Assembly (NCBI GenBank): GCA_005792285.1
Contig: SXSI01000021.1
Coordinates: forward strand, 1-54,592
Direction of reading: 5' to 3'
Length of the DNA stretch: 54,592 nt
Source of the DNA: Bacteroidota bacterium
GTDB taxonomy: Bacteria > Bacteroidota > Ignavibacteria > UBA10030 > UBA8401
In this document: positions 24,978 to 37,555 of the stretch, piece after piece
Position numbering within the stretch: the first letter of the stretch is position 1
Layout: every line of letters starts with the position of its first letter
The notes under the pieces: generated by a model
Database searches by the model: none
What the model was told of the DNA's origin: nothing
The model's input: the letters and a program-made list of their open reading frames with translations, nothing else
Position numbers and translations under genes: made by a program

Positions 24978-26387
24978 ATGTCAATCACAACATCAAATCA
25001 AAACGAACTTTCCCGAAGATTGAGTTTAACTTCTGCCATTTTTATTGTGGTTGGTTCTATGATCGCTTCAGGTATTTTTTTAACACCACAAAATGTTGCT
25101 GCAAGTGTTCAAATTCCAGGCATAATGATTTTTGTTTGGATTTTAACAGGGTTTTTAACTTTAGCAGGCGCACTTACAAATGCTGAAATTGCAAGTATAA
25201 TTCCGGAAGCTGGCGGACAATATGTTTTTTTTCGAGTAACATACAATGACCTTGTTGCGTTTCTTTATGGATGGACAACTTTTATTGTTTACCAAACCGG
25301 TTCAATTTCTGCAATCGCAGTAGCATTTGCAAGATACCTCGGTTATTTTGTTGATCTTCCACATTTATCGCCTGAACTAGAAGCGTGGCAACTTCCATTT
25401 ATTGGAAATATTTATCCATTAAAAGATATTGGTGTAAGCTTAGTTGCAATTTCTGCAATTATTTTATTAGCAATTGTAAATTATTTTGGTGTCCACTTTG
25501 GCGGATTCATTGTAACGCTTTTTACAATTTTAAAGGTTCTTGCAATTGGTGCAATAATTACACTTTCTTTTTCATCTGGCATGGGAAATGTAGAAAATTT
25601 TTTCCCACTTTGGGGAGTTCCACCTAACGGAGCTTTAGTTGGTGCAATTGGTGTTGCAATGATTGCAACCCTTTGGTCATACGATGGTTGGAATAGTATT
25701 ACTTATCTTGCAGGCGAAGTTAAAGAACCACAAAAAAATATCCCACGTGCAATAATTATTGGTACAATTACTGTTATTATAATTTATGTACTCACAAATT
25801 TAGCTTATCTCTATATTTTACCAATTGAGAAAATTGCAACTTCAAAACTTGTTGCTGCCGATGTTATGGATACTTTATATCCTAGTTATGGCGGCGCAAT
25901 AATATCAATAATGGTTATGATTTCGACTTTTGGTGCAGTAAATGCAACTTCACTTACAACTGCAAGAGTATTTTTTGCAATGGCAAAGGATAAATTATTT
26001 TTTAAAGGAATTGAAAAAGTTCATCCAAAATATAAAACGCCTGGAAGAAGTTTAATGGTTCAGGCAATTTGGGCGTCGGTCTTAACTTTAACTGGAACCT
26101 ATGATCAAATTTTTACTTATGTAATTTTTGCCGGTTGGATTTTTTATGCAATTGGCGGGTATGCGGTTTTTATTCTTCGTAAAAAAATGCCGGAGGTTAA
26201 AAGAGAATATAAAGTCCCGGGTTATCCTTATGTTCCAATAATATTTATACTTGTTGCAACTTGGTTTGTTATAAATACGATTATAACTCAAACTACAGAT
26301 TCAATAGTTGGATTGTTTTTGGTTTTAGCAGGAATTCCTTTTTACATGTATTGGAAAAATCAAATTAAGAAGAGCGCAAATTCCTAA
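24978..26387 (+). CDS. APC-family amino acid permease
   Basis: The 469-residue protein has about twelve membrane segments and the APC signature near TM1 (IVVGSMIASGIFLTP), plus EAGGQYVFFRVTYND and WSYDGWNSITYLAGEVKEP typical of the L-type amino acid transporter branch. It starts 54 bases after the histidine kinase and may be cotranscribed. Its stop overlaps the convergent gene by four bases (26384-26387), so no separate terminator fits between them. Exact amino acid specificity is not readable. Confidence 0.88.
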   Translation: MSITTSNQNELSRRLSLTSAIFIVVGSMIASGIFLTPQNVAASVQIPGIMIFVWILTGFLTLAGALTNAEIASIIPEAGGQYVFFRVTYNDLVAFLYGWTTFIVYQTGSISAIAVAFARYLGYFVDLPHLSPELEAWQLPFIGNIYPLKDIGVSLVAISAIILLAIVNYFGVHFGGFIVTLFTILKVLAIGAIITLSFSSGMGNVENFFPLWGVPPNGALVGAIGVAMIATLWSYDGWNSITYLAGEVKEPQKNIPRAIIIGTITVIIIYVLTNLAYLYILPIEKIATSKLVAADVMDTLYPSYGGAIISIMVMISTFGAVNATSLTTARVFFAMAKDKLFFKGIEKVHPKYKTPGRSLMVQAIWASVLTLTGTYDQIFTYVIFAGWIFYAIGGYAVFILRKKMPEVKREYKVPGYPYVPIIFILVATWFVINTIITQTTDSIVGLFLVLAGIPFYMYWKNQIKKSANS

Positions 26388-29300
26388 TAATCTCCACCGA
26401 GCGAAAAGTAATATCTCGGCTTAGAAAAGTTTTGAAGATTATAAGTCCACGCAACATCTATTTTTAATGGAAGTCCGAAGAAAATAAATCGCGTTCCAAC
26501 TCCCATTCCCATAAGTAAATCTTTCATTTCCGATTCTCCATTTGCATTTTTAGAGACACCTTTATAATATTTATCATCTGTCCAGGAAGAACCAATATCA
26601 ACAAACGCAGCTCCCATAATATTTTGCAATGCTATCGGGACTCCGCCGGCTACAAGAAGCTGAATCAACTGAAACCGATATTCATTATTTAGAAGTAAAT
26701 ATTTTGTTCCATTTTTTACGTTGTAATTAAAACCACGCATCGGTAAAACCGGTGTTAAAAAAACATAATCTTCAACGTTTTCAATTGGAATTCTATTATT
26801 GTCGAATGTATAATTAATCCATCCTTCAGTTCCTCCGAGAAAGAAATGCTGTGGATTTTTTCCGAAACTAAATCCAGATGCAACGCGTGATGCAATTGAA
26901 CTTGTTCTAAAGAGTCGAATATAATTTCGAAAATCAAAAGTTAGAGTTTTAAAATCAAGGGAGTTCGCTCCTTTAAATGGTGAAAAACTAAAAGTTAAAT
27001 TAAATCTCTTTCCATTGTTTGGAGAAAGTATCCACCATAAAGAATTATCGTGCACAAAACTTATTGATGGTATAATTAATTCGCGTCTTTGTGTAGCGGC
27101 TGGAGGAAATTCCATAGATTCACGCGATATATTTAAAAACATCAAACTCCCATCGACTCTGTTAAATTTATCAAATGGATAAGTTGCCATTGCGGCAAAT
27201 CCCCAATTTCGAAAACGGAATAATCCATTAGATAACCATAAATATCTCGCACTATGAAATCCTTGCAAACCATAATCAATTTTTTCAGGAAGATAAAAAT
27301 AACCGAGAGAGTAATCGCTATTTCGAAGATCTGTTAAAAGATTTGTAACAAAATAAATTTGATGATCGCCCAACATATCACTAAATGCCATTACAGTAGT
27401 TCCTTGTACGCCGTAATATGTACTGAAAGCTGTTGTCGCATAAATAATATCTGGAGAAAAATTCAGTTTATAATTTGTAATTCTATAATTTCCTGCTTCA
27501 TCTATATTATCACTTACTTGTAAAGTTGTATCGATTGAAGTTGTAGGTAATTGAAATTTTAATCCTTCAATTTCACTTGATGAATTACTTAAATCAATTT
27601 GAATTGCATCGCCATAAGAAACAATTCGCGGTTCGATTGCTTTGCTTACTGTGTCAGATTTTAAGGAAGCCGAGATTAAAAAGAATTGTTCCTTTCTGAA
27701 GTCAGTTTTTTCAAGTGATGTTATTTTTAATTCTTTTTCAAATGGACTTTTAATTAGAAAAATATCAAAACCAGCTTCATTCAAACAAGAAAAAGATAAT
27801 TTATTTCCATCGCGTGATAATGATAACTGGTAAAGCCCAGTAATTGAATTTGTAATTGGTCTTTCCTGTGAAGTGCCAAGATCTAATTGATAAATATTCC
27901 CAATTCCATTTTTATCTGAAACATAAAGAACTGATTTTTTATCTGTAGAAGGAATTGGATTTGTTTCATCACAGAAAGGAGTATTCGTGAGTTGCTTAAT
28001 AATTCCCGAATTAACATTCGCAGAATAAACATCATATTGCGAATAATTATTTTCCCAAATATTAAAGTTTGCAGTAGTTCGTTTTGATAAATTAATTGAA
28101 CGATCAGATGAGAAGTAAATTGTCTCACCATCATTTGACCAAGTTGGATCTAAATCAGAAAATACGTCGTTTGTAATATTGCTTATTTTGCGTGTTTTAA
28201 AATCAAAAACATACACATCAGATTGCGAGGCAGAATTACCAATAAAAGCAAGTTTGTTATTTGAATGCGACCAATCGACACTAAAAATTCCATCCAGATT
28301 TTTAAATGCAAGTTTTTCTTCTTCACCAGTTTCTACATTGATTAACATAATCGCATCTTTATCGCCACTTTTAACAGCGAGTGCAATCCTTTTACCATCA
28401 GGAGACCAACTAATTCCTGGCGTTAGTAAATGTAATTCTTCAAAATTTGCAACGCGCTGTCCATTGACTATTTTTTTTATTTTATTATCAATTGTTGAAA
28501 TAATAAATACATCAAGATAATCGTCTCTGTCGGATATAAATGCAATTTTATCTCCTTGTGGCGAAAGTGCCGGAGAAGTATTGTAAAAATTTCCATCTTT
28601 TGAGTGATTCGTTAATTGTTGTGCAAAATCTTTTGGCTCTTCTCTTTTGGCAATGTCCGGCCAGTACGCAACCTTCAATCCTTTTTGCCAATTTTCATTT
28701 AGTTCTTTAACTGTTAATCCAATTGCGCTTTTAAATCCATTATCAATACTTCTTAGTCCTTTAATTCGATGAAGTATTTCGGAAATTTTTTGTTCACCAT
28801 ATTTTGTTGCAATGTAATACCAAACGGATTGTCCTGCACGATACGAAAAATATCCACTTAAATTTTCAATCGGTGGAAGATATGTATGTAAAGTTGCATC
28901 TCTCATAAACATATCTGAGTTAACATCCCATTCTAAAGAAAGGTATTCTGAAAGTCCTTCGTTGAACCAATGAGGAAGTTGAAGCTGAACATTATTTGAA
29001 ATAATTGATTGAATTGATCCACCATAAAACATATCATTTAAAACTGCATGCACAAGCTCATGGTGAATAACATGTCGGAACTGTCTATAGTTTCCTTCAA
29101 ATGGAACAACAACTCTGTTTTTAAATAATTCTGTAACTCCGCCAATTCCTTCATCCATATATTCTGAAATAACATTTGTTTGTTGAAAGTCATTATGCGA
29201 ATTATAAATCATTATGGAAATTCTGTTTGAAATGGTGTGTCGAATTTTTTTTGAAATAGCTCCGTAAGCTGATTCCGCTGATTGCGCAGTAAACTTTGAA

Positions 29301-29479
29301 AGGTATTCTCCTTTTTCATAATAATAAATATCAAAATGCTCAGTTTGAATATACGACCAATTAAAGTTTTTATATTGAACTTTGTTCTTCCCAAAAACAA
29401 CTTCCTGAGAATAAGTTGGTTGATTACTCCAGAAAGTAAATATTATAAATAAAGCGATTTTAAAATTTCTTTTTAGCAT
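26384..29479 (-). CDS. Multidomain outer-membrane protein: gluzincin-like peptidase, PD40 propeller, Omp85-type barrel
   Basis: The 1031-residue protein has three parts after a signal peptide (ending near TYSQE). Residues 40-280 look like a peptidase-MA domain, with HELVH (140-144) and WFNEGLSEYLS (171-181), the HExxH plus downstream Glu arrangement of gluzincins. Residues about 295-620 hold repeated TolB/PD40 blades (SPQGDKIAFISDRDDYLDVF, SPDGKRIALA, SNDGETIYFSSDR). The C-terminal 300-400 residues read as a beta-barrel with MRGF (914-917) matching the Omp85 VRGF/Y loop-6 motif, ending SLGGDY. The gene lies 13 bases after rnr and downstream of tamB. Its role is unknown; surface protease or assembly factor are options. 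Confidence 0.85.
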   Translation of the reverse strand: MLKRNFKIALFIIFTFWSNQPTYSQEVVFGKNKVQYKNFNWSYIQTEHFDIYYYEKGEYLSKFTAQSAESAYGAISKKIRHTISNRISIMIYNSHNDFQQTNVISEYMDEGIGGVTELFKNRVVVPFEGNYRQFRHVIHHELVHAVLNDMFYGGSIQSIISNNVQLQLPHWFNEGLSEYLSLEWDVNSDMFMRDATLHTYLPPIENLSGYFSYRAGQSVWYYIATKYGEQKISEILHRIKGLRSIDNGFKSAIGLTVKELNENWQKGLKVAYWPDIAKREEPKDFAQQLTNHSKDGNFYNTSPALSPQGDKIAFISDRDDYLDVFIISTIDNKIKKIVNGQRVANFEELHLLTPGISWSPDGKRIALAVKSGDKDAIMLINVETGEEEKLAFKNLDGIFSVDWSHSNNKLAFIGNSASQSDVYVFDFKTRKISNITNDVFSDLDPTWSNDGETIYFSSDRSINLSKRTTANFNIWENNYSQYDVYSANVNSGIIKQLTNTPFCDETNPIPSTDKKSVLYVSDKNGIGNIYQLDLGTSQERPITNSITGLYQLSLSRDGNKLSFSCLNEAGFDIFLIKSPFEKELKITSLEKTDFRKEQFFLISASLKSDTVSKAIEPRIVSYGDAIQIDLSNSSSEIEGLKFQLPTTSIDTTLQVSDNIDEAGNYRITNYKLNFSPDIIYATTAFSTYYGVQGTTVMAFSDMLGDHQIYFVTNLLTDLRNSDYSLGYFYLPEKIDYGLQGFHSARYLWLSNGLFRFRNWGFAAMATYPFDKFNRVDGSLMFLNISRESMEFPPAATQRRELIIPSISFVHDNSLWWILSPNNGKRFNLTFSFSPFKGANSLDFKTLTFDFRNYIRLFRTSSIASRVASGFSFGKNPQHFFLGGTEGWINYTFDNNRIPIENVEDYVFLTPVLPMRGFNYNVKNGTKYLLLNNEYRFQLIQLLVAGGVPIALQNIMGAAFVDIGSSWTDDKYYKGVSKNANGESEMKDLLMGMGVGTRFIFFGLPLKIDVAWTYNLQNFSKPRYYFSLGGDY

Positions 29480-29492
29480 ATAGTAATTGAAT

Positions 29493-31670
29493 TTATCGTT
29501 TTTTTCTTTTAATATGAAGTGCTTTAATTGGACTTTTATTGTCGCTCATAATATTAAAGTCAATTTTTTTAGTTTCGGGATTTACTGAAATTATTTTAAC
29601 CTTAATTTTATCTCCCAATCTATACATTTTACCGGTTCGTTTACCAATTAAAGAATATTTCGCTTCGCTATATTCATAATAATCATCTTTTAGAGTCCTG
29701 GCATGAATTAATCCTTCAACTAATGTTTCATTTAATTCAACAAAGAAACCAAAATTCAACACTCCGGAAATAATTCCCTGGAATTCTTTCCCAATATGAT
29801 TTTTCATGTATTCAATTTGCATGATTTTAATTGTGTCTCGTTCGGCTTCTTGTGCTAATTTTTCGCGTGCCGAAGAATGTTGACACATTTCTTTTAATTC
29901 TTGATTTGAATAGAGAAGATGTTGAACTTCATCTTTATTATTTTTTTTAGTTAAATAATGATGAAGCAATCTATGAACTAGTAAATCTGGATATCTTCTT
30001 ATTGGAGATGTGAAATGTGTATAATCATCAAATGCCAATCCAAAATGGCCGATGTTCTCAGTATCGTAAATTGCTTTTGCCATAGAACGAAGTGTAACTA
30101 CATTAATTATATTTTCTTCTGGCTTTCCTACTACATTTTCGAGTAAGGTTTGAAACTCACGATGAATATTTTTTGATTGCTGAAATTTGAATCCTAATTT
30201 CGAAACAAAGAGTGAAAGTGCTTCGAGCTTTTCTGGATTTGGTGAAGGGTGAATTCGAAATACAAAAGGGACTACTGATTTATTATTGTGAAATTTTTTA
30301 ATTTGTAGTGCAACTAATTTATTTGCAAGCAACATACATTCTTCTACAAGTTGATGACTTTTCAATCGTTGTTTTATTATTATTTCTATAGGAATTCCAC
30401 GAGAATCAAATTTAAATTTTGGTTCAAGGGTTTCAAAATTAATTCCACCTTTTTTAAATCGCTCTTCTTTTAATTTCAATGCAACATTCCACAACGTCAA
30501 CAATAAATTTGAAAATTTTCCTTTTTTGGAATCGAGTATTTTCTCGACTTCCTCATAAGTAAATCTGCATTTTGAATGTATAATTGTTTTTGCAATTCTA
30601 TCTGAAATTATTTTTCCATTTTGGATTTTTATAAAACAGGAATAAGCTAATCGGTCTGTATCTGGCTTTAAACTACAAAGATTGTTCGATAACTTTTCGG
30701 GCAACATTGGTACAACCTGATTTGCCAAATAAAGACTTGTCCCTCTCGCTAATGCCTCATTATCAAGCTCAGAATTTGGTTTTACATAATAACTAACGTC
30801 AGCAATGTGAACTCCTAATTCAATTGTGGTTGAGTCTATTTCTTCAATTGAAAGTGCATCGTCGAAATCTTTTGCATCAACTGGATCAATTGTTACACAA
30901 TCTAAACTTCGACAATCTTCTCTTTCATCGATTTCTTTTTGAGAAAAATTATTTGAAAACTGCGCAGCTTCTTTTTCAACATTTTGTGGGAATTCTTGTG
31001 TTAAATTATATGTTCGCAATATTGATTTTATTTCTGCAAATGGATTCCCAGCAATACCCAATATTTCAATAATTTTACCTTCGGGATTAAAATCTTCTGA
31101 CTCCCATTCTATAAATTCCACAACAACACGATCTCCAGCTCTTGCATTCAACACATATTCTGCAGAAATATAAATATCTCTTTTAAATTTTTTATTATCA
31201 ATGATTGCAAAGATTGTATTTTTTGTTTTGGCAACTGTTCCGATAAAAATATGTTCAGCGCGTTTAATTATTTTTTCAATTTTCCCATCTGGATATTGTT
31301 TATTGTCAAGCGTCGTAGTTTTGGAATAAGTTACAACTTCAACCGTATCCCCTTCTAATCCAGTATTTAAAAGTTGAGGTGCAATTAATATTTCTCCCTT
31401 TTTTTCATTTGTAGTAACTACACCATAATTATTTTTTAATATTCTGAGAACTCCTTTTACGCGTCCTTTTGGAATATGTAATTTATAACCAGAATTCAAA
31501 TCAAATTCAAGAGTACCACTATCTACTAATTGGTGAAGCGTTGTTCGCAAAGATTGATATTCCTGATTATTGCGAATATTTAATAGTTGTGCAATTTCGC
31601 GTGATTTTACAGCGAGTGATGGTCTGGAAGAATATAATCCCAGAATTTTTTGTTGAATGTTATTTTTCAT
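29493..31670 (-). CDS. rnr: Ribonuclease R (RNB/S1 exoribonuclease)
   Basis: RNase R is a processive 3'-5' exoribonuclease that degrades structured RNA. The 725-residue protein has an N-terminal helix-turn-helix-like region (1-70), cold-shock domains (about 70-220), the RNB catalytic domain starting near residue 255 with CVTIDPVDAKDFDDALS, and a C-terminal S1 domain (about 630-710, GKEFQGIISGVLNFGFFVEL) plus a basic tail. Its ATG lies immediately after the tamB stop, so it belongs to the same run. It is followed by the peptidase-propeller-barrel gene. Confidence 0.95.
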   Translation of the reverse strand: MKNNIQQKILGLYSSRPSLAVKSREIAQLLNIRNNQEYQSLRTTLHQLVDSGTLEFDLNSGYKLHIPKGRVKGVLRILKNNYGVVTTNEKKGEILIAPQLLNTGLEGDTVEVVTYSKTTTLDNKQYPDGKIEKIIKRAEHIFIGTVAKTKNTIFAIIDNKKFKRDIYISAEYVLNARAGDRVVVEFIEWESEDFNPEGKIIEILGIAGNPFAEIKSILRTYNLTQEFPQNVEKEAAQFSNNFSQKEIDEREDCRSLDCVTIDPVDAKDFDDALSIEEIDSTTIELGVHIADVSYYVKPNSELDNEALARGTSLYLANQVVPMLPEKLSNNLCSLKPDTDRLAYSCFIKIQNGKIISDRIAKTIIHSKCRFTYEEVEKILDSKKGKFSNLLLTLWNVALKLKEERFKKGGINFETLEPKFKFDSRGIPIEIIIKQRLKSHQLVEECMLLANKLVALQIKKFHNNKSVVPFVFRIHPSPNPEKLEALSLFVSKLGFKFQQSKNIHREFQTLLENVVGKPEENIINVVTLRSMAKAIYDTENIGHFGLAFDDYTHFTSPIRRYPDLLVHRLLHHYLTKKNNKDEVQHLLYSNQELKEMCQHSSAREKLAQEAERDTIKIMQIEYMKNHIGKEFQGIISGVLNFGFFVELNETLVEGLIHARTLKDDYYEYSEAKYSLIGKRTGKMYRLGDKIKVKIISVNPETKKIDFNIMSDNKSPIKALHIKRKKR

Positions 31671-34600
31671 TTAAAATATTATTTTGTAGTAAACCCGCGC
31701 CCCAACCACAGATTGTTTGTCGACATTGTATTCGAAAGGATCTATTTTGCGCTCAATTTCAAATATAAAGTTTTTATATTTTCTGCTTCCTGTTATAGAA
31801 CTTAATGGCATTTGCAAACTTAGATTTGCATTATTTAAATCTGAAAAAACTTTTCCGCCAAAACTCCAATAAGCATCTAAAACCTCTCCCCCCAATCTCA
31901 AATCGGGAGTGTCGGTTGAATAACGTAATTCTGCATTTGAAATAAATGTAATATTATTTGATCTCACAAAATCCATCATCATTCCTGAAAGAAGTGTATT
32001 TGTAAAACTATTTATCATTGAAACACTAACCGAAGTTCCGAGTACTTCACTTATTCCCTGTTTGTCATTTAGATTTAAATCTTCGCGAAATTTTCCAGGA
32101 ATTCCCGGAGAAGAAGTTAATAAAAATGAAATGACATCTCCTTCAATATCACTTGTTCGTTCAGTTCTTTCTTTTTTTTCATTCACTTGATATAATGAAA
32201 GTTTTGGAATTGGTTGAATTCTTGTTCCTGTAATTTCAAGTTGAACATGTACATCTTCTGTCGGTGGATTTGCATTTTGTTCCAACTTCAATCTCGTTCC
32301 TGTATAAACTGCAATAATATTTAATTTTGGATTCGAAGGTTCAGCAAGAAATTCTATATTTCCTGATGCATTAAATTGCTTATAAAAAGTATAAGTTGAA
32401 CGTTCAGTAACATTAATCGTACCAAACATTTCCTTTGTTTTATTAGTATTTCTAATAGAAAAACTTCCTTCAAGATATGCCAACAATTCCTCATTAGTTG
32501 CCGGATTAAAAATAAACCGCGTTGTAACAATTCCATCTGTTTGAAATTGTAAATCATAAATAAATTTATCAAGTGGAGAAGGTTTTTGCAACCGCAAATT
32601 TCGTTCTTGTAAAAAGATCATCATTTCCTGAAATGCATAATTATCTCGACTTACTCTTGAGGTGTCATCCACAACAATAATATTTGAGATTTTAGATTGA
32701 TTAAATACTGTAGCAATTTGCGAGGGTGGAATTATCAGATTTGCATTTCTTACTAACAGTTTACCATGCATTTTTGAAATACCAGATGAACCATCAAAGC
32801 GTAAACCATCAGAAGTTGTTGCTAAAATTAATTCTCCATAAAAAGTATTACTCAATGAAGAATACCCATGTTGCATTACAAGCAATTCTCCTTTTGTAAT
32901 AATATTATAATTTAGATTATTAAAATCTTTTAAATTTATTGTTCCACTTATATCTGCATTACTTTTTGAATATACTGATTTGCTGTTTCGTAATGTGAAT
33001 TTTGAAAACTTTAAATTACTCTCTTCGAATAACAAACTCCCATTTGCTATATAGTGCAATCTATTAGGCAAATAAAGAAAATCAATATTATTAAAAGATA
33101 AATTACCATTTAATTCTGGGTTTTCAACTGAACCAGTTGCAGTTAATGTGCCGTTTATTTTTCCATTTATATTTTCAAGAGTTGAAAAATATGGTTCGAT
33201 ATAATTAAAGTTGAAATTATTAAATGCTATTTTTAGATCCAATCCGTCGCCTGTAACCTTTGGCGAACTGAATAAACTTAAATTGACAGGTACATTCCCA
33301 TTTATTGAAAAAATTTTATTTGATTCAATTGGAGAAAGTAGATCTAAATTAACCTGTGCAAGATTTTCATTATACCTTATTTCTCCAATAAGTTGATTTT
33401 CAGATTTATTTTTTTCTGAATTCCAAGTTATATCCACTTTTGAAGTTATTTGTGGTTTAGAAAGTGTACCATTTATTTGCAACGAAGCACTACTAATAAC
33501 ATTTGCAAAAAGTTTTTTATCTCCGATTGATTCCATTAAAGCTGAAATGTCAATTTTATTTACTTCGATTTGTGAATTTACCATTCCCAATTTTGTTAAT
33601 TCTCCAGAAAGTGATATATATTTTGAAGTATTAATAACACTTTCAGTACTTGATTCAAACAGAGTTAACTTTGGAATATTAATTCCATTTTTTGTAAAAT
33701 TAAATGTGACGGGCTTGTTATTATTCAAATGAATTGTACCGTATCGAAAATAAACAGATCGGAGAGTTGCAGATATATCATTTTCCGAAAACAATACTCC
33801 TCCTTGTACTTCTGTTGAAATAACACTGTCTATTGTTGACGAAATTAGAAACCTCGATTTTTGATTCTTTAGCTCAAATTCAATACTTACATTCTCATAT
33901 TTAGTGTCACCATAATATAATGCGTCAAAAGTAGATTCCAAAAATAAATCAATCTCACTAATATTTATCTCTTTTAATAAATCAATATTTGATATTGAAT
34001 AGTTTAAATCAAAGTTGTCGATATAAAATTTCTTTTCTTCAATTGTACTTCTTGCAGTTAAAATGTGTGACTTACCGGAAAGTGAAAGTTTACTCCCTTT
34101 TGTTTTCAAAATTCCTTCTATTTCAACGGTGGCATTGCTTGAAGGTAATTCTAATAACATTGTAATTGGTTCAAGGTTATTAATTGAAATTTTATATTCA
34201 CAATTCTGAGGATAACTAATTTTAAATGGTAGCTGCGAGACACTTTCTGTTTTTAATTGATTTTCTTTTTGAGCGATACCAAGTGAATTTAATATATTTT
34301 CTTTTTTTGATTTTACCAATTTGGTTATTTGTGCAAGAGTTGTTCTGAATGAATGTTGTAATAATCTTGGAGAAAAATCTCCTTTAAATGTTGCGTCTGC
34401 TAATCTCGAATTGAATGTATATTCCCATAATTTATTTTTTTTACCAAATAAAAGGAATACAGTTGATGTGTCGAAGTTGAATTTATTATATCTCGAGTCT
34501 TGAAATTTTATTTCTCCTTCTACAAGCGCATTATCAATATCTATTCCTTGAGTTGATAAATTAAAAGTACCACTAAGCAAAGAATTATGAATTGAGTCTT

Positions 34601-36083
34601 TCAATATATTTGCAAGATTTACTTCTTTGAAGTTTCCTAAAACTTGAAATGTCGTAGCATTGATATCTTTTTTATTATTGTTGAAAAGATATTTAAATCT
34701 TAATTCTCCGGCATCTGATAATTGAAAATAATCTCCCTGAAAAATATTATTTTCATATGTTCCCAATAAATTTGCACTATTAATTTTAACAAAGTTATAG
34801 GTTGAAGGTGTTAATTCTACTTTGTAATTAAAACTATTTAGACTTCCAGTTAAATTTGCAGTAAAATTCAATTTAGATTCAGAATATTTTTTACCAACAA
34901 AATCAAAAATATCAACATCTTCTCCTTCAACACTAATACTAACCGATTCATCATTCTTTCGGGTTGAAAGTGTTGCAATTAATTTTATTTCCTGATTTTC
35001 TTTGTTAATATTAAAATTAGCTTTGGTTTGAGTTTCTGTTTTTATTAATTCACCACTCACTAAAACTTCTGTCATTTCGCTGAGGTATTCCTTATAAGAA
35101 GGGATCAAACTTATAAAATCTGGTGGATTAATTATTGATGATTTTATTGTTACTGAAATCTCTTCGTTCTTTTGACCTAGCTTTATTGCATTTCCAGCAA
35201 AGTTTAACTGGCTATTTTTATGCTTAAGTTCGATGTTACTGAAATTAATTTCCGCCAAACTACCTTCAAACTTTCCTTTAATTTTAACTTCCCCATTTAA
35301 AGGGATATTAAAACCGCTTATTTTTGATATCTCATTAAAACTTAATTGAGAGTTATCAAGTGCAATTATCGCTTTAGGAGACTTTTCTAATTCAACAAGT
35401 TTGATTGATCCTTTTATGTTTGACTCAATACTTTTTAATTCGACTTCACTTAGCACTATATCATAGGGCGTTAAAGTAATATTTAATTTACCCTTTGCTA
35501 ATTTCAATTTTGTTGATTCATCTATTAATGAAATTGTACTAATTGACAAATTTGTTTTTTCAGGAGTTACATTAACTCCAATCTCACTTTCAATATTATT
35601 AATTATTCTTTTTTTATTATTCACTTCATCAGTAAAATTTATCGATCCATTAATTATCGCTAAATTTTTGATACTTAAACTGTTATTACCTTCTGATGGT
35701 TTATAAATATTCTGGAGATTAAAAGTTTGATTTTTAAATCGTATCACAGATATTTTAGGAGAGTATATTGAAATTGATAGAATTTCGTTTTCACCATTAA
35801 CTAGTTTAAGTAAGTCATATCCAATTTCTACATTTTGAATTGAAATTACTGTATCATTATTTTGTACAATTGTTGCATTGTTAATATTTATTCCTGTAAA
35901 TAAATCTCCCGAAATATCCCCAAATTTAAGTTTTGCATTTAATAATAATTCTGCCTTTGAGATTATATTACTTCTTAAATAAGAATGAAAAACAGAAGTT
36001 TTGGATAAAATAAAAATTCCCATTACAACGATTGCAAAAAATGAACCAATAATTAATAATGTGGTTAAAGCTTTATTTTTCAT
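31671..36083 (-). CDS. tamB: TamB/AsmA-like envelope protein (DUF490)
   Basis: The 1470-residue protein has one N-terminal membrane anchor (about 7-27) and then a very long beta-rich body of repeating strands, as in TamB, AsmA and other bridge-like lipid-transfer proteins. The C-terminal 350 residues contain the TamB (DUF490) signature region, with GTSVSVSMINSFTNTLLSG and LRLGGEVLDAYWSFGGKVF. It should span the periplasm and support lipid transport or outer-membrane protein assembly. It overlaps hldE2 by four bases, and rnr starts on the very next base. No canonical TamA is adjacent; the nearest Omp85-type barrel is encoded two genes downstream. Confidence 0.88.
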   Translation of the reverse strand: MKNKALTTLLIIGSFFAIVVMGIFILSKTSVFHSYLRSNIISKAELLLNAKLKFGDISGDLFTGININNATIVQNNDTVISIQNVEIGYDLLKLVNGENEILSISIYSPKISVIRFKNQTFNLQNIYKPSEGNNSLSIKNLAIINGSINFTDEVNNKKRIINNIESEIGVNVTPEKTNLSISTISLIDESTKLKLAKGKLNITLTPYDIVLSEVELKSIESNIKGSIKLVELEKSPKAIIALDNSQLSFNEISKISGFNIPLNGEVKIKGKFEGSLAEINFSNIELKHKNSQLNFAGNAIKLGQKNEEISVTIKSSIINPPDFISLIPSYKEYLSEMTEVLVSGELIKTETQTKANFNINKENQEIKLIATLSTRKNDESVSISVEGEDVDIFDFVGKKYSESKLNFTANLTGSLNSFNYKVELTPSTYNFVKINSANLLGTYENNIFQGDYFQLSDAGELRFKYLFNNNKKDINATTFQVLGNFKEVNLANILKDSIHNSLLSGTFNLSTQGIDIDNALVEGEIKFQDSRYNKFNFDTSTVFLLFGKKNKLWEYTFNSRLADATFKGDFSPRLLQHSFRTTLAQITKLVKSKKENILNSLGIAQKENQLKTESVSQLPFKISYPQNCEYKISINNLEPITMLLELPSSNATVEIEGILKTKGSKLSLSGKSHILTARSTIEEKKFYIDNFDLNYSISNIDLLKEINISEIDLFLESTFDALYYGDTKYENVSIEFELKNQKSRFLISSTIDSVISTEVQGGVLFSENDISATLRSVYFRYGTIHLNNNKPVTFNFTKNGINIPKLTLFESSTESVINTSKYISLSGELTKLGMVNSQIEVNKIDISALMESIGDKKLFANVISSASLQINGTLSKPQITSKVDITWNSEKNKSENQLIGEIRYNENLAQVNLDLLSPIESNKIFSINGNVPVNLSLFSSPKVTGDGLDLKIAFNNFNFNYIEPYFSTLENINGKINGTLTATGSVENPELNGNLSFNNIDFLYLPNRLHYIANGSLLFEESNLKFSKFTLRNSKSVYSKSNADISGTINLKDFNNLNYNIITKGELLVMQHGYSSLSNTFYGELILATTSDGLRFDGSSGISKMHGKLLVRNANLIIPPSQIATVFNQSKISNIIVVDDTSRVSRDNYAFQEMMIFLQERNLRLQKPSPLDKFIYDLQFQTDGIVTTRFIFNPATNEELLAYLEGSFSIRNTNKTKEMFGTINVTERSTYTFYKQFNASGNIEFLAEPSNPKLNIIAVYTGTRLKLEQNANPPTEDVHVQLEITGTRIQPIPKLSLYQVNEKKERTERTSDIEGDVISFLLTSSPGIPGKFREDLNLNDKQGISEVLGTSVSVSMINSFTNTLLSGMMMDFVRSNNITFISNAELRYSTDTPDLRLGGEVLDAYWSFGGKVFSDLNNANLSLQMPLSSITGSRKYKNFIFEIERKIDPFEYNVDKQSVVGARVYYKIIF

Positions 36084-36556
36084 TTATTATTATACTGCTT
36101 CAAAATATTTTCAATAATATTTGATGATGAGCGATTTGGTACAAATGAAATTGTTTTTACAAGTCCACCATTTTTTTCAACTACATCTTTTCCAACAATT
36201 GAATAGATTTTCCAATCTTCACCTTTTACAAGTATATCGGGAATTAGTTTTGTAATAATTTCCAATGGAGTATCCTCATTAAAAATCAAAACACAATCAA
36301 CTGATTTTAATTTTGAAATAACAATTGCGCGATCAAATTCATCAACTATTGGACGCTTTTCACCCTTAATTCGTTTGACGGAAGAATTACTATTTACACC
36401 AACAATTAATTTATCTCCGGCTTTTCGTGCCTCTTCAAGATATTCAACATGTCCACGATGAAGTATGTCGAACACGCCATTTGTAAAAACGACTTTCAGC
36501 CCCTCGTTTTTCCATTTCTCCCTTTGAAGAATTGCGTTGGACAATTGGAAGTCCAT
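36080..36556 (-). CDS. rfaE2: D-glycero-beta-D-manno-heptose 1-phosphate adenylyltransferase (HldE C-terminal type)
   Basis: This nucleotidyltransferase makes ADP-heptose for lipopolysaccharide inner core. The 158-residue protein has the cytidylyltransferase-like motif FTNGVFDILHRGHVEYL with HRGH at 33-36, and the second motif region NRSSSNIIENILK at the C-terminus. In E. coli it is fused to the kinase as HldE; here it is a separate gene 12 bases downstream of the kinase gene. It overlaps tamB by four bases. The pathway implies heptose-containing LPS or another ADP-heptose product. Confidence 0.93.
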   Translation of the reverse strand: MDFQLSNAILQREKWKNEGLKVVFTNGVFDILHRGHVEYLEEARKAGDKLIVGVNSNSSVKRIKGEKRPIVDEFDRAIVISKLKSVDCVLIFNEDTPLEIITKLIPDILVKGEDWKIYSIVGKDVVEKNGGLVKTISFVPNRSSSNIIENILKQYNNK

Positions 36557-36568
36557 ATGTTTTACCTT

Positions 36569-37555
36569 TTATAGTGAATCGTTTTGCAATGAATTTTCAA
36601 GTGCCTGTTTTAAAATCGGAACCGCTCCGACTTCGCCACAAACTACACCGGCTGCATGGTTTGCAATAATTGCCGCTTGTAAAACTGATGCGCCAGCTGT
36701 CATTGCAACTGTTGAAGTTGCGATAACTGTATCTCCGGCACCTGAAACATCTGCAATATGAAGCGCTCTTGTTGGAATGTGGTGAACTCCTCCATGAGAT
36801 TGAATTAGTGTCATCCCTTTTTCACCTTGAGTTAATAAAATATTATGTGCGTGAAGTTTGTGAAGTAACTCTTTGCCAATTTCAATTAATTCTTCGTTTG
36901 AAGAAATTTTTCTTCCGAATGCCTCTTCAATTTCTTTTATGTTTGGCTTGAAAAGAGTTACATTTTTATAATTAAAAAAATGAGAACTCTTTGGATCAAC
37001 AGCAACTATTTTATTATGCTTTACTGCGAGCGCAATAATATTTTGTAATAAATTTTGTGTGATTACACCTTTGTTATAATCTTCAAGAATAATTCCATCG
37101 ATGCTATGAATATTATTTTCGAGAATTTGTAATATTGATTTTTCTATTTCGGAATTAATTGTATCTCTTTTCTCATTATCAATTCTTACAACATGTTGTT
37201 GATGAGCAATCACTCTAAGTTTTACAGTTGTCGGTCGTGTTGGATCAGTAATAATTCCGGATGTATCAAAAGATTCTGTTTCGAGTAAATGTTTTAATGC
37301 AAGTCCGTTACTATCTTTCCCAATTACGCCAAGTAAAAATGGAATAGCTCCCAAAGATTTAATATTGTTTGCAACATTCGATGCTCCTCCCAATCCATCT
37401 GTTTCGCGGATAACATCAATAATCGGAACAGGTGCTTCCGGAGAAATTCGTGATACGTTCCCCCAAACATATCTATCCAGCATTAAATCGCCGATAATTG
37501 CTATCTTTTTACCGAAACATTGTTGAAGTATTTTTAAATAATCTGCTATTGGCAT
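36569..37555 (-). CDS. rfaE1: D-glycero-beta-D-manno-heptose-7-phosphate kinase (HldE N-terminal type)
   Basis: This PfkB/ribokinase-family enzyme phosphorylates heptose-7-phosphate at C1. The 328-residue protein has an N-terminal IGDLMLDRYVWGNVSRISPE, the GGASNVANNIKSLGA signature, and the C-terminal catalytic ADVSGAGDTVIA with the GAGD anion hole and Asp base. It forms a two-gene ADP-heptose module with rfaE2. A candidate promoter lies just upstream, which would make it the first gene of the rfaE1-rfaE2-tamB-rnr run. Confidence 0.93.
   Translation of the reverse strand: MPIADYLKILQQCFGKKIAIIGDLMLDRYVWGNVSRISPEAPVPIIDVIRETDGLGGASNVANNIKSLGAIPFLLGVIGKDSNGLALKHLLETESFDTSGIITDPTRPTTVKLRVIAHQQHVVRIDNEKRDTINSEIEKSILQILENNIHSIDGIILEDYNKGVITQNLLQNIIALAVKHNKIVAVDPKSSHFFNYKNVTLFKPNIKEIEEAFGRKISSNEELIEIGKELLHKLHAHNILLTQGEKGMTLIQSHGGVHHIPTRALHIADVSGAGDTVIATSTVAMTAGASVLQAAIIANHAAGVVCGEVGAVPILKQALENSLQNDSL

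Follow-up and report, generated by a model that had tools for sequence, protein, structure and literature searches.

A gluzincin-type peptidase domain, a TolB-like propeller and an Omp85-type barrel in one polypeptide encoded beside RNase R and TamB

The window, that is the whole analysed stretch of 54,592 nucleotides, carries at 26384..29479 a gene for a protein of 1031 amino acids with a peptidase MA domain, a PD40 propeller and an Omp85 barrel, supported by its reading frame, Pfam and AlphaFold. The initial annotation had placed these borders correctly, and only the strand needs mending: the reading frame runs on the minus strand, and a plus-strand reading of 26384-29479 was ruled out by stops throughout. 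It is the last gene of a run on this strand, which comprises a PfkB-family sugar kinase (36569..37555) and a cytidylyltransferase-like gene (36080..36556), both from the Pfam scan, then TamB (31671..36083; NCBIfam TamB at E 5e-21, the only PF04357 match of the genome) and RNase R (29493..31670), recognized by profiles of its RNB, OB and S1 domains and located 13 bases upstream of the barrel gene. All neighbors in the run are separated by gaps of at most 13 bases or overlap shortly. A promoter and terminator scan showed no enrichment over shuffled DNA, so the operon structure is suggested by this spacing.

By Pfam and AlphaFold, a signal-like start is followed by a gluzincin peptidase and a TolB-like propeller, from which a disordered linker leads to an Omp85 barrel of 16 strands. 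The full-chain model, for which 57 orthologs served as input, reached pLDDT 82.2 and pTM 0.79, and placed the peptidase at about residues 40-285, the propeller at about 300-577 and sixteen barrel strands at 674-1027. The following coordinates all refer to the minus strand. Residues 1-25 (29405..29479) resemble a signal peptide in their hydrophobic sequence and in a predicted helix at 2-17; they include no cysteine, and thus no lipoprotein signal as in TamL. The linker (residues 607-652, 27524..27661) has pLDDT below 50. The three-domain reading, first made from the letters of the DNA, is therefore upheld both by the profiles Peptidase_MA_2, PD40 and Omp85 and by the models, and the motifs HELVH, NEGLSEY and MRGF lie exactly at the residues originally given for them.

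The N-terminal domain (residues 40-285, 28625..29362) matched Peptidase_MA_2 at residues 82-268 with 54.4 bits against a cut-off of 32.4 in the Pfam scan of the whole chain. Modelled alone it gave pLDDT 87.5, and by structure it matched M9 collagenases at Z 17.0 and M1 aminopeptidases at Z about 13-14. These matches speak for the proposed gluzincin fold around HELVH in the predicted structure. Clan MA is marked by HExxH and a downstream glutamate in a matching fold, and by Pfam and structural comparison the protein has both. HELVH occupies residues 140-144 (29048..29062), where H140 and H144 would be zinc ligands and E141, by analogy, the catalytic residue; NEGLSEY occupies residues 173-179 (28943..28963), and its E174, which stands 30 residues beyond H144, is the probable third ligand. 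A sequence profile of this domain found no relatives in PDB, and the resemblance to M9 does not imply collagenase activity.

These residues are strongly conserved. In the alignment of 57 sequences H140, E141, H144, E174, G175, E178, R915 and G916 were invariant; for H140, E141 and H144, and for E174, G175 and E178, invariance was recorded in both alignments, A1 and A2. HExxH was present in 106/106 ortholog sequences, some of them representing the same genome in two collections, and the zinc ligands were kept across orthologs of 43-82% identity as well as in three further paralog types. Such a complete and invariant zinc site argues for catalysis. One ortholog (L122:1-2889) had MWMNEVI in place of the WFNEGLAEY of the others, which may be an error in the sequence or a true alteration of the zinc site.

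The propeller (residues 300-577, 27749..28582) was identified by PD40, which scored 66 bits over four stretches of the whole chain, above its cut-off, and by the match of the model to TolB (Z 27.5, rmsd 2.3 A over 245 residues). The curated TolB profile TIGR02800 gave 114.6 bits, below its cut-off of 343. One could suppose from the TolB-like fold that the propeller does the work, the peptidase domain being a structural scaffold, and that the protein only binds, for example as a Tol-Pal-like envelope tether. This seems quite unlikely to us: zinc ligands and catalytic glutamate are all invariant, and while TolB_N had no match in the source genome, which favors such a tether, that genome is 95.6% complete and the absence of TolB is uncertain. 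The genome is rich in Omp85 proteins and PD40 propellers, although the TolB N-terminal domain was not found.

The C-terminal part (residues 674-1027, 26399..27460) is predicted by AlphaFold to form the barrel that the initial annotation had expected, with structural matches to BamA (Z 25.7) and TamA (Z 23.3). Its strands, counted from the elements listed for the model, begin at residues 674, 690, 706, 721, 735, 752, 773, 797, 820, 844, 860, 926, 955, 988, 1003 and 1022. Pfam Omp85 was absent from the scan of the whole chain and appeared when the C-terminal third was scanned alone (PF01103 on residues 660-1031, 38.6 bits, cut-off 24, E 1.2e-9) and at the locus 26384-29479 in the genome scan. 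In the model, the MRGF motif (residues 914-917, 26729..26740) falls within the long loop that joins strands 11 and 12, the site of loop 6 in Omp85 proteins; its R915 and G916 were invariant in both A1 and A2. From its fold we infer that the barrel is located in the outer membrane, and the invariance of the RG motif suggests that it may do more than anchor the chain. No POTRA was detected in the protein, either by the Pfam scan or by the POTRA scan of the genome at this locus, as the initial annotation had foreseen; in this it departs from BamA, TamA and TamL. The curated TamL profile matched the barrel part only, at 28 bits against a cut-off of 400.

How widespread is this protein? The search among relatives gave matches in 60/60 genomes, nearly all with a close ortholog, whole or broken at a contig end. 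The architecture is conserved; most of the relatives with names are metagenome-assembled genomes that carry the labels Ignavibacteria, Kryptonia or Bacteroidetes. In the sample of the phylum 214/296 genomes matched at E 1e-10; the weakest of these matches may be due to the propeller and no other part. A strong match was missing from many genomes of the phylum, and the role is therefore not universal.

The source genome, which is reduced (1.68 Mb), appears from motifs and profiles to encode two more proteins of the same design, on contigs 45 and 48. The contig 45 paralog had a PD40 match, a peptidase match under the Pfam cut-off and no match to the Omp85 profile; the contig 48 paralog had PD40 and Omp85 matches and no Pfam peptidase match. 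The parts lacking a profile match were read from motifs and from alignment to the family profile. HExxH, WFxEG and (L/M)(R/K)G(Y/W) were kept in the paralog types of about 940 and about 1040 residues and in the contig 48 paralog. The contig 45 paralog (L202:8370-11465) belongs to a cluster recurring in L195, L196 and L200, together with a PorV-like gene of type IX secretion, a DUF5683-like gene and the gene of a large protein that bears a type IX sorting tail, not each member having been tested in each locus; by this gene cluster it may be tied to type IX secretion. The contig 48 paralog adjoins L203:10249-12600, where domains of beta-lactamase type and of M15 D-Ala-D-Ala peptidase are found in one chain.

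The same genome has a set of POTRA-bearing Omp85 proteins: BamA, a TamL-like protein, a patatin-POTRA-Omp85 protein and two smaller ones. The patatin protein, which is PlpD-like, is encoded at L205:12582-15062 (contig 17). With these proteins present the usual insertase roles are filled, and we rejected the barrel protein as a substitute for TamA by default, since a TamL-like POTRA-Omp85 exists in the genome. The earlier idea that a protease and a propeller take the place of POTRA thus holds for this one protein and fails for the genome as a whole, where BamA and the TamL-like protein carry POTRA on separate chains.

Genomic proximity to TamB is recurrent. Among the 48 named ortholog loci offering 7 kb of room, TamB lay upstream on the same strand in 26, in a divergent cluster in 2, and was lacking in 20; RNase R was the immediate same-strand neighbor in 33/62 ortholog loci with room. 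On the ortholog tree the linkage to TamB was seen on separate deep branches with six changes of state, a pattern consistent with an ancestral arrangement. RNase R adjoined the ortholog again in five loci from other families of the phylum. A frame of 1545-1621 residues preceded RNase R in 4/5 of these, matching TamB outright in one; the other frames gave matches of AsmA/DUF748 type or weak ones to TamB. In two of these loci AroB was next upstream, not the genes of the window. Outside the linked clades the few loci scanned had no shared pattern of neighbors.

As a control we took 15 genomes with the barrel gene elsewhere, and by coordinates RNase R and TamB were still side by side in about 10 of them. 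Most sampled genomes of the phylum had this adjacency, even where the flanking genes differ. Since TamB and RNase R persist together without the barrel gene, they form the stable pair, which the barrel gene joins in some lineages, and its linkage to TamB may be inherited order rather than function. Gene proximity remains moderate evidence of a link between the barrel protein and TamB; as proof of a partnership it was rejected, because the control weakens the inference.

This bears on the view that the protein is an outer-membrane assembly factor or TAM component without POTRA, whose barrel would insert or fold proteins, whose propeller would bind clients or TamB in the manner of BamB or TolB, and whose protease would clear failures. 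It draws on the Omp85 fold with its invariant RG loop motif and on the clustering with TamB in several families, and Omp85 genes in the same operon have served before to propose TamB partners (PMC4494059). We find it possible, yet doubtful, given the missing POTRA, the BamA and TamL-like Omp85 in the same genome and the TamB-RNase R pairing that outlasts the absence of the barrel gene beside it. A bolder version would see in the protein a third type of Omp85 machine: zinc protease and propeller would stand for POTRA, it would work with TamB to insert outer-membrane proteins or destroy failures, and a paralog would be dedicated to type IX secretion. This version we think unlikely.

The outer membrane is built by Omp85 proteins. 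Most likely, in our opinion with a probability of about 0.45, the protein is a zinc protease anchored in this membrane and facing the periplasm, where it would process envelope proteins or control their quality. The Omp85 barrel would anchor the chain, with the propeller suspended beneath as a platform for docking or gating, and the gluzincin domain would cleave, close to the assembly machinery, envelope proteins that are unfolded, stalled or still maturing, much as soluble BepA does at BAM. In this scheme enzymatic activity, topology and substrates are presumed, as would be a contact of the protein with TamB or BAM. The scheme is favored by the complete invariant zinc site together with the precedents of PlpD and BepA, the latter a zinc peptidase that works on outer-membrane proteins at BAM (PMC8423444; review PMC13067283), and both the filled insertase roles and the recurrent gene run with TamB count toward it. 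Among the readings offered initially, a self-anchored protease is thus the best fit, the zinc site being invariant in diverse orthologs and kept in paralogs; the other one, a novel assembly or secretion factor, is a lesser possibility.

The side of the membrane is decisive for another alternative, in which the barrel exports peptidase and propeller by type Vd-like autotransport to give a self-secreted surface protease. We regard it as very unlikely. Loop 6 plugs Omp85 barrels, and a folded propeller would presumably be a poor passenger. Such autotransport had been proposed at first for PlpD and the Omp85 "metallo" proteins (PMC4104836), but those Omp85 N-terminal parts whose location has been tested are periplasmic, among them the enzyme domain of PlpD, which later work placed in the periplasm (PMC11116518). 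By analogy, peptidase and propeller, which precede an Omp85 barrel as in PlpD, would lie on the periplasmic side. Under the anchored-protease reading, a single chain of a widely conserved Omp85 protein would combine assembly or anchoring with quality control by a built-in protease, and the uncharacterized WD40-Omp85 class would receive an activity testable at one active-site residue, E141.

The architecture is less isolated than the initial annotation implied, as WD40-Omp85 and enzyme-Omp85 (PlpD) classes are published. We take PF00149 to be the calcineurin-like metallophosphatase family. A "metalloprotease-Omp85" class was defined in 2014 by PF00149 (PMC4104836), and so it differs from our gluzincin-propeller-barrel protein. 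The WD40-Omp85 subfamily, named in 2014 by Heinz and Lithgow and likened to a BamA-BamB fusion (PMC4104836), has a TolB-like propeller directly ahead of the Omp85 barrel and no POTRA; our protein agrees with it in architecture, which was the basis of comparison rather than the published sequence set, but the peptidase domain is absent from its description in the main text of that paper. According to a 2024 paper the metalloprotease and WD40-like subfamilies are still not well characterized. In the open-access literature we found no account of a gluzincin joined to an Omp85 barrel, nor of one with a propeller as well, most subscription papers and supplementary tables lying outside the search.

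PlpD and other patatin-Omp85 proteins likewise carry an N-terminal hydrolase on an Omp85 barrel, periplasmic in PlpD; however, PlpD is a phospholipase with POTRA and without a propeller, and ours has a putative zinc peptidase. TamA and TamL share the barrel fold, and the gene lies near tamB like tamA of Proteobacteria, but here POTRA is missing, peptidase and propeller are added, and the TamL-like protein of the genome is separate. TolB has the same propeller fold, but as a soluble member of Tol-Pal it bears an N-terminal domain of its own, which was not seen in the 1031-residue protein. M9 bacterial collagenases share the predicted gluzincin fold at about 13% identity. BepA is also a zinc peptidase of periplasmic type with a proposed action on outer-membrane proteins; unlike our protein it is a soluble M48 enzyme with a TPR domain and no barrel fusion, and the analogy is one of function only.
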